Positions 11,575 through 12,978 of a stretch of DNA of 43,699 bases are shown here, in pieces (the first letter of the stretch is position 1; the number at the start of each line of letters is the position of its first letter). Made by a program: the position numbers and the translations under genes. The stretch is from Patescibacteria group bacterium. GTDB lineage: Bacteria > Patescibacteriota > Patescibacteriia > JAACEG01. The DNA is taken from positions 1-43,699 of the forward strand of contig JAYEJU010000021.1 of assembly GCA_034660655.1 (NCBI GenBank), written 5' to 3'. Below the pieces are notes generated by a model, which worked only from the letters and a program-made list of their open reading frames with translations, had not been told where the DNA came from and made no database searches.

Positions 11575-11675
11575 GAGGAAAATAAAATAATTGATAATAA
11601 TTTATTGGTTAATATGTTTTAAATATTTATAGAAATATAATAAAAAAAATAGAGGACGAATGATTTTTTAGATAA

Positions 11676-11774
11676 TAAAAAAAATCCTTTAAAAGGGCTT
11701 TCCCAACCACGTTCTTATGTTGGATGTCCTAGCCACGCCGCTGTTCGGCGACAGTTCGGAATATAGGTTTTTGT
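11676..11774 (-). ncRNA. candidate small structured RNA of about 95 nt, family unknown
   Basis: An island of much higher GC than its surroundings with no ORF. On the minus strand it shows hairpins CGCCG-AACAG-CGGCG and CCAAC-N11-GTTGG, the second enclosed by GGCT/AGCC, then a short CCTT/AAGG stem followed by eight T. A minus-strand promoter (TTAACA-N16-TATACT, 11808-11781) places a start near 11774. It is not a tRNA (no T-arm), and no SRP, RNase P or known riboswitch signature was recognised. Confidence 0.5.
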
Positions 11775-11780
11775 ATTTTT

Positions 11781-11951: not shown

Positions 11952-12004
11952 TATAATAAAGGCATTTATAGATGCCTCTATAGAGGCCTCTATAGAGGCA
12001 TCTA
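11952..12004 (+). promoter_or_regulatory. -10 box and perfect 36-bp palindrome in front of the AbrB-like gene
   Basis: TATAAT at 11952-11957 is followed by a perfect palindrome at 11969-12004, made of two copies of GCCTCTATAGAGGC sharing a central GGCC and flanked by TAGAT/ATCTA. With one mismatch the symmetry extends to 11964-12009. It ends 16 bp before the ATG at 12021, in the position of an autoregulatory operator or a leader hairpin. The -35 region (about 11929-11934) is poor. Confidence 0.65.
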
Positions 12005-12020
12005 AAAATAATTTTTATTT

Positions 12021-12185
12021 ATGAAAAATATTATTAGAAAATTGGTCAGAAATAGCTCTTATAGCTATTCTCTGAATATTCCCAAAGAAATTGTGGATAA
12101 ATATGGCTGGAGAGCTAAACAAAAATTAGTTATTAAAGACAAGGGAAGGGGATTGTTGGAAGTGAGGGATTGGAAAAGGAGATAA
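12021..12185 (+). CDS. 54-residue AbrB/SpoVT-like DNA-binding protein
   Basis: Reads MKNIIRKLVRNSSYSYSLNI, then PKEIVDKYGWRAKQKLVIKD and a basic end RGLLEVRDWKRR before TAA at 12183. The strand - IPKEIV helix - GWRAKQKLVI strand pattern is that of the AbrB swapped-hairpin fold, with the whole protein being only this domain. Such proteins bind DNA as dimers and are often stand-alone regulators or antitoxins; no toxin partner follows here (the next gene is a cyclophilin 118 nt away with its own promoter). The large palindrome immediately upstream is its likely binding site. Confidence 0.75.
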   Translation: MKNIIRKLVRNSSYSYSLNIPKEIVDKYGWRAKQKLVIKDKGRGLLEVRDWKRR

Positions 12186-12236: not shown

Positions 12237-12265
12237 TTGACTAGTTGATTTTTAATTTATATAAT
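12237..12265 (+). promoter_or_regulatory. promoter of the cyclophilin operon
   Basis: TTGACT (12237-12242), 17-nt spacer, TATAAT (12260-12265), 38 nt upstream of the ATG at 12304. A near-consensus sigma70-type promoter. Confidence 0.7.
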
Positions 12266-12303: not shown

Positions 12304-12978
12304 ATGAAGAAGATTTTTTTATTTTTATTTTTGGCGTTTTTAATTTCTGGGTGTTCAAATAATCAAACGAAAAAATTAGATGCTGTAAATAAAAATATAA
12401 CTAAAAATTTAAATATTAATAATATGAATTCAACAAATATTATTGAAAAACAACAAACAACAATTCAAGATGATTTTAAGGATTTAGCGTCAGAATATAA
12501 TCAAGCGATTATTAAAACAAATTTTGGGGATGTAAAAATTGAATTTTATTCTGATGATTCACCTGAAACAGTTAATAATTTTTTAAATTTAGCTGAAATT
12601 AGATTTTATGATAACACAAAATTTCATCGCGTAATAAAAGATTTTATGATACAGGGCGGAGATCCAAACAGCAAAGACGATGATTGGTCTAATGACGGAA
12701 CAGGCGGACCAGGATATAAATTTGCTGATGAATTTAACAGCCATAAATTAGTAAAAGGAAGCCTGGCAATGGCAAATTCAGGTCCGAACACAAACGGCTC
12801 GCAATTTTTTATTGTTACAAAAGAAGCAACTCCTTGGTTAGACGGGATGCATACTAATTTTGGTTATGTAATTGAAGGCATAGATATTGTAGAAAAAATA
12901 GAAGAAGTGGAAATTAATAATCGCGACCATCCGCTTAAAGATGTTATTGTTAAAAGCATAGAATTAATAAAAAAATAA
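12304..12978 (+). CDS. cyclophilin-type peptidyl-prolyl isomerase, lipoprotein
   Basis: 224 residues. A lipoprotein signal (MKKIFLFLFLAFLISGC, lipobox LISGC) puts it on the outer face of the membrane after a short Asn/Lys-rich linker (about 18-60). The cyclophilin domain (about 68-222) shows FHRVIKDFMIQGGDP (residues about 112-126), GSLAMANSGPNTNGSQFFIV and LDGMHTNFGYV, covering the catalytic Arg, the Phe/Met pocket and the Gln. It accelerates prolyl isomerisation in exported proteins. It is first of three genes with envelope or redox roles. The overall assignment is firm. Confidence 0.93.
   Translation: MKKIFLFLFLAFLISGCSNNQTKKLDAVNKNITKNLNINNMNSTNIIEKQQTTIQDDFKDLASEYNQAIIKTNFGDVKIEFYSDDSPETVNNFLNLAEIRFYDNTKFHRVIKDFMIQGGDPNSKDDDWSNDGTGGPGYKFADEFNSHKLVKGSLAMANSGPNTNGSQFFIVTKEATPWLDGMHTNFGYVIEGIDIVEKIEEVEINNRDHPLKDVIVKSIELIKK

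Follow-up and report, generated by a model that had tools for sequence, protein, structure and literature searches.

A candidate single-domain AbrB-fold autorepressor of Patescibacteria and the 12-bp-period palindromic array before its gene

Introduction

In Escherichia coli (E. coli), the mazEF operator is an alternating palindrome, the middle part of which can pair with either of its neighbours, and MazE represses its own promoter (PMC4803016), so that autoregulation by an AbrB-fold protein is already known. The choice of DNA by AbrB-fold proteins has been described as elusive, the known sites differing strongly (PMC4022651). MazE6 of M. tuberculosis binds its own -10 region, and because its paper assigns it an RHH motif, it offers only an analogy to the proteins considered here. 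The open-licence literature yielded nothing linking AbrB with Patescibacteria, nor AbrB with the candidate phyla radiation and palindromes, nothing useful on AbrB in Parcubacteria, and nothing on autoregulating transcription factors of the candidate phyla radiation together with their operators.

The locus described here encodes a 54-residue AbrB-type protein (mini-AbrB) and lies in contig JAYEJU010000021.1 of a Patescibacteria group bacterium (GenBank assembly GCA_034660655.1), the whole analysed stretch of which, 43,699 nucleotides, is referred to as the window.

Results

Sequence features of the locus

A first-pass annotation of the window had reported two overlapping copies of GCCTCTATAGAGGC that form an exact 36-bp palindrome between a TATAAT box and an ATG. 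Both copies, the palindrome and its placement between TATAAT (11952-11957) and the ATG (12021) were confirmed. The palindrome is, however, a portion of a longer array with a 12-bp period, which had been overlooked. The features are as follows.

11952..11957, plus strand: TATAAT, probable -10 element, read from sequence
11956..12004, no strand: proposed operator, an array of alternating palindromes with a 12-bp period; 4.1 copies of ATAGAGGCCTCT by Tandem Repeats Finder
11961..11976, no strand: left imperfect unit GGCATTTATAGATGCC, with 1 mismatch to the unit in the promoter of the 90%-identical paralog
11969..12004, no strand: exact 36-bp palindrome TAGATGCCTCTATAGAGGCCTCTATAGAGGCATCTA
11974..11987, no strand: copy 1 of GCCTCTATAGAGGC, exact sequence match
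11986..11999, no strand: copy 2 of GCCTCTATAGAGGC, 2 bases in common with copy 1
12021..12185, plus strand: 54-residue single-domain AbrB/MazE-fold DNA-binding protein, proposed autorepressor (open reading frame, Pfam, AlphaFold2, structural matches)
12237..12265, plus strand: separate strong promoter-like site for the next gene, TTGACT, 17 nt, TATAAT, with 11/12 consensus matches
12304..12978, plus strand: next gene, not encoding a toxin: peptidyl-prolyl isomerase of the cyclophilin type, carrying a lipoprotein-like signal (PF00160, E 5e-50)

The best self-repeat of the window array is at a lag of 12, with a score of 22. As judged by base composition, palindromes as long as 36 bp are expected by chance ~0.0003 times per whole genome, and the runner-up perfect palindrome in the window has 26 bp. 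A promoter scan found no good -35 element at 16-18 nt spacing for the TATAAT at 11952. Since the array begins where the -10 box ends, a protein bound to it would cover the transcription start.

An exact-match search of the 932,260-base genome gave no further copies of GCCTCTATAGAGGC. Hence, when the site search and the repeat test proposed with the first-pass annotation were carried out, the motif proved to be confined to this array, with only a handful of related sites, and is not an interspersed (REP-like) repeat. Sites of the window operator type, with up to 3 mismatches to a related unit, occur at 7 places in the genome, 3 of which are within the window array and one of which is probably a chance match. 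Two arrays of the window type, at C18 15926 and C2 136, are orphans with no mini-AbrB gene behind them. The C18 orphan (L024) matches the promoter array on contig C5 for ~35 nt, with mostly different flanks, and the adjacent gene on that side codes for a small secreted-looking protein. The C2 orphan region (L032, ~60-480) has a window-like 12-bp array beside what reads, from its translation, as the remnant of an IS200-like transposase.

At the Rfam gathering threshold, only tRNA was found in the whole window. Microrna-precursor matches of the array (E <= 1) reached 32.3 bits against a 95-bit cut-off and were set aside as chance matches to a hairpin. On the minus strand, 11701-11769 has a sub-threshold match to DUF3800-IX RNA (29.7 bits against a cut-off of 36.8, E 0.0003), and the surrounding block, 11664-11778, shows 81% conservation in a single related genome (G002). 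This block, upstream of the array, is possibly a small RNA.

Predicted structure of the protein

The 54-residue protein scores 20.3 bits against Pfam PF04014, under the 24.7-bit cut-off, which is passed by its paralog on contig C18 and by several other family members. The AlphaFold2 monomer model (mean pLDDT 90.3) has strands at residues 9-12 and 15-17, a helix at 22-28, and strands at 36-42 and 45-50, and it has the fold of the AbrB N-domain, i.e. of the swapped-hairpin superfamily. When the model was compared with known structures using VIA-align, nearly all rows were AbrB, SpoVT, MazE, VapB or archaeal AbrB-fold entries, the best match having Z 7.2 and an rmsd of 1.2 over 48 residues. Foldseek matches likewise resemble the AbrB superfamily, MazE included, with every E-value above 0.1; these high values are ascribed to the shortness of the chain. 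In a comparison of the family profile with PDB sequences, the first match was the N-domain of B. subtilis AbrB (E 0.00019). As judged by the model, the structural matches and the profile match, the protein is predicted to be an AbrB-type DNA-binding domain alone. This agrees with the earlier description of it as a single AbrB domain, as the open reading frame stops right after the domain, the last modelled strand of which ends at residue 50.

Distribution of relatives

The genome carries two paralogs of the window gene: that on contig C5 shares 90% identity with it, and that on contig C18 shares 44%. In profile searches, 33 of the 380 class genomes (E <= 1e-5) and 33 of the 379 phylum genomes (E <= 1e-8) proved to carry members. 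Another scan, of named genomes, turned up 26 loci; where a group is given, the titles are those of Patescibacteria-type bacteria (Moraniibacteriota, Falkowbacteria, Campbellbacteria and Parcubacteria), a few being titled just 'bacterium'. No viral or plasmid origin emerged: 28 pattern matches in viral contigs gave 0 confirmed members, and none were found in phage and plasmid collections.

Arrays upstream of homologs

From 116 profile hits, 7 were removed (no start codon, fragments, and one unrelated hit), giving 109 homologs, all from Patescibacteria-type genomes; left out of the homolog set were 4 weak class hits, 3 weak phylum hits and L013 (E 0.0099). A palindromic array is found upstream of most homologs, with letters that vary between genes. 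Over the 90 nt leading up to the start, the best self-repeat lag was exactly 12 bp for 76/109 homologs versus 12/220 control genes taken from the same loci, and the mean lag-12 score was 10.28 and 3.47, respectively. The score at lag 24 was likewise higher for homologs (5.2 versus 3.4), and homologs and controls scored about alike at the remaining lags. Significance at 0.05 was reached by the best palindrome of 83/109 homologs and of 23/220 controls. Because 8 of the 109 homologs favour a lag of 11 bp, the 12-bp period is the rule, not universal. In a fresh set of named records, in which 26 loci gave 22 usable new ones, the best lag was 12 in 12 and another lag in 10.

The period is specific to this subfamily. 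Among larger PF04014 proteins of the same class, lag 12 was seen in only 1/22 (L181 being excluded, as its upstream sequence was too short), and two members of the mini-AbrB family that stood within the larger-PF04014 list do show lag 12. Absence of the palindrome from orthologous genes had been named beforehand as a finding that would refute the proposed switch. It is kept before close orthologs, e.g. as ATAGAGGCATCTATAGAGGCATCTATAGATGCCTCTAT in the 80% identical L137, and the nearest orthologs, L137 and L140, retain the core operator letters of the window.

Upstream of L208, L200, L198 and other larger PF04014 genes (TTVGERGQVVIP type), a different palindrome is often present, e.g. AAGTATGAAATTTCATACTT, with a 9-bp lag. 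These larger genes are possibly a second autoregulated group.

Arrays that give a clear lag-12 signal (78) contain a mean of 2.7 units. Each unit includes two dyads placed 6 bp apart: the phase ranking second lies at +6 in 48/78 arrays, and symmetry is 0.77 at the best phase and 0.55 six bases on, as compared with 0.33 at the median phase. With 2.7 units on average, the 'pair of dimers' suggested in the first-pass annotation is probably too few to cover an array. The distance from the array end to the ATG has a median of 11 nt. A -10-like hexamer lies no more than 25 nt upstream of the array in 30/99 homologs with an array versus 3/126 control windows. In the other arrays, the hexamer is located inside (10), downstream (5) or far upstream (10), and for 44/99 none was found by the strict rule.

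Operator letters and protein identity

Co-variation was assessed for 99 genes with an array; 30/129 homologs, for which no array passed the thresholds, were excluded. Operator similarity rises with protein identity, with a Mantel rho of 0.244 as compared with 0.117 for the top of 300 permutations and 0.079 for the distant upstream flank in the same test. An operator similarity of at least 9 is reached by 72.6% of pairs with at least 70% protein identity but by ~4% of pairs below 40%; the corresponding values for the distant upstream flank are 0-2%. The residues most tied to operator similarity are 14, 4, 11, 30, 12, 19 and 17, the near-invariant columns, which cannot be judged, being set aside. 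They are located mostly around the first hairpin, 11, 12, 14, 17 and 19 being in or beside the modelled strands 9-12 and 15-17.

Within genomes, only 3 of 107 paralog pairs with less than 70% identity share operator letters, whereas pairs matched for identity predict 13.4 (stratified draw, p 0.0002; 0/1000 label permutations as low), and one of the three (G037) depends on an A/T-rich stretch. Paralogs with at least 70% identity share operators in 5/6 pairs, including the window gene and its C5 paralog. In genome G325, with nine paralogs and nine arrays, L039/L092 and L099/L108 are the pairs with letters in common. As paralog pairs are non-independent and the between-genome comparison pairs include orthologs, the lower sharing could partly be a paralog-versus-ortholog effect rather than selection for insulation. 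Hence, on the sequences compared, the pattern amounts to a separation of specificities and not to proof of selection for separation.

Stand-alone palindromes

Sites of the TTACGTARC type occur away from regulator genes as well, often 3' of genes. There are 17 per strand in one 1.1-Mb genome that encodes two matching proteins and 5 in another genome. Some of 15 extra places lie just before genes, which were named from sequence as two serine recombinases, prmC, a glycosyltransferase and alaS, and the remaining ones include sites between convergent genes or in terminator-like palindromes. In two genomes (L220 and L223), such a site immediately precedes large serine recombinase-like genes, which are related and were also named from sequence; this placement may link some mini-AbrB regulators to mobile elements.

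It was expected that TTACGTARC arrays and RKVTRVG-type proteins would pair one to one. This was contradicted, as the sites are present in 11/380 genomes and the matching RKVTRVG-type protein was found in 5 of these 11 and not in the other 6. Of those 6 genomes, 3 have other mini-AbrB subtypes only and 3 have no mini-AbrB at E <= 1, and several of their sites follow stop codons. Sites in genomes lacking a matching regulator, several of them after stop codons, indicate that some stand-alone palindromes have another binder or another use. They weaken the claim that every array is a mini-AbrB operator, and the link between a gene and its own array is unaffected.

A palindrome of the type GTTACGTAGCNNGCTACGTAAC (L218, L219, L221, L224-L227, L231) is conserved across several families of the class and phylum. 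It is often just 3' of genes or terminator-like, and it was seen also where no matching mini-AbrB was found.

Gene context

As the gene following the window mini-AbrB gene has its own promoter-like site, sequence context suggests that the mini-AbrB gene may be a transcription unit of its own. A same-strand downstream gene no more than 30 nt away was present in 45 of 100 homologs, so many family members may control a small operon. The downstream genes are diverse: the commonest Pfam families account for 4/100 each and PIN for 2/100. A PADLOC scan of 100 same-strand downstream open reading frames returned nuclease and methyltransferase models as best hits and no shared defence system.

Discussion

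Proposed mechanism

The most probable interpretation, on comparative grounds, is that the 54-residue protein is a minimal autorepressor, dimers of which would bind an alternating-palindrome operator at the core promoter. The earlier suggestion of a minimal autoregulated switch is thus strongly supported by the comparison, whereas the binding itself, like repression, its stoichiometry and the physiological role, is what we infer from it. Under this proposal, the protein, a member of the AbrB superfamily, would repress its own gene. Homodimers, as predicted from the fold, would bind the dyads of the 12-bp-period array, and several adjacent dimers over the edge of the -10 box and the predicted transcription start would block RNA polymerase, so that the protein limits itself to a low level. 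The proteins of the different lineages would each have co-diverged with their own operator, and paralogs within one cell would use different operator letters, by which their circuits stay separate. About half of the homologs have a close downstream gene that could come under the same control.

For the broader generalisation, the evidence tips only slightly in favour. It holds that a Patescibacteria-wide family of miniature AbrB-fold autorepressors would bind as stacked dimers to their own 12-bp arrays, with a small number of residues in the first beta-hairpin separating the paralogs into orthogonal protein-operator pairs; these would provide a readable recognition code and very small orthogonal repressors.

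Alternative explanations

The array might instead act in RNA, as a stable leader hairpin controlling translation or mRNA stability, and the first-pass annotation had offered a version of this in which the hairpin hides the start codon region. The hairpin part stood: a structure of -28.9 kcal/mol is predicted (z -4.5, 0/200 shuffles as stable), and with the -10 upstream of the array, as in the window (30/99 homologs), the array would be transcribed. However, the start codon is outside the predicted hairpin, and because the -10-like hexamer is inside or downstream of the array in 15/99 homologs, a leader hairpin cannot be the general role. The palindrome mismatches, with G-T at 22 and A-C at 15 (p 0.32), reveal no significant wobble bias, and neither a strict 12-bp period nor two alternating dyads are needed for a hairpin. 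This explanation is therefore considered the weaker one and unlikely. Distinctly unlikely, too, is a small global or nucleoid-like regulator, for which the arrays would be chromosomal sites at promoters and gene ends and self-binding would be one case among them. It would account for the repeated TTACGTARC-type sites in single genomes, for their positions before genes, between convergent genes and in terminator-like palindromes, and for the pair of orphan arrays on C18 and C2 of the genome that holds the window. The window operator type is, on the other hand, restricted to the 7 places described above, and TTACGTARC-type sites are present in genomes without a recognised matching regulator.

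An antitoxin of the MazE/VapB type, orphaned or still active, with the array as a toxin-antitoxin operator, is judged a very unlikely identity for the protein, even though the fold matches include MazE and VapB N-domains, NCBIfam antitoxin models gave weak, sub-cut-off hits in 2 of 4 family members tested, PIN genes follow two distant family members, and the mazEF operator of E. coli is of the alternating-palindrome kind (PMC4803016). MazF was absent among the 25 Pfam families listed, of 83 in all, for 100 downstream genes, PIN was found in only 2/100, and the next gene in the window encodes a peptidyl-prolyl isomerase. The 54-residue protein has no toxin-binding tail beyond its domain, and the sequence upstream of E. 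coli mazE has no 12-bp period, its lag-12 score being 2.5 versus 22 in the window. Hardly any credence is given to the array as a mobile or tandem-repeat element unconnected to the protein. Its tandem 12-bp structure, the existence of array-only copies and the apparent IS200-type transposase remnant beside the C2 orphan fit such an element, but arrays with unrelated letters occupy the same place before mini-AbrB genes and not before controls or other PF04014 genes.

Significance

Some 100 homologs display a palindromic candidate operator by the gene, with letters that track the protein, so that, if autorepression through the arrays is the correct reading, recognition rules of the AbrB fold become readable and testable. 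The ~100 relatives with the same layout would be a natural collection of matched protein-DNA pairs and could supply laboratory circuits with candidate orthogonal repressors of very small size. They would also point to a level of regulation in ultra-small bacteria without precedent in the open-licence literature searched.

Comparison with known systems

To our knowledge, no 12-bp array is known for the archaeal proteins Sso7c4, C56 of pSSVi and C68 of pSSVx, which resemble the mini-AbrB proteins in being single-domain, 53-60 residues long and of the same fold. The N-domains of B. subtilis AbrB, Abh and SpoVT share the fold too (2w1t, Z 7.2; 1yfb, Z 6.1). Unlike full-length Bacillus AbrB, mini-AbrB is without the C-terminal domain, and alignment of the family profile with the AbrB N-domain gives ~4 extra residues in the first hairpin. 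The proposed mini-AbrB operators are plainly palindromic; the sites bound by AbrB, by contrast, have been described as differing greatly (PMC4022651).

Like E. coli MazE, structures of which are among the top fold matches of the 54-residue protein, mini-AbrB has an AbrB-type swapped-hairpin domain, and like the mazEF operator, the array presents successive overlapping dyads at a promoter, here 6 bp apart. The present locus differs from E. coli mazEF in having no toxin gene, no toxin-binding tail and a regular 12-bp array. What is new relative to these systems is how large the family is, that its alternating operator keeps a regular 12-bp period, that any partner domain has been lost, and that the operators co-vary with their proteins and are mutually distinct.
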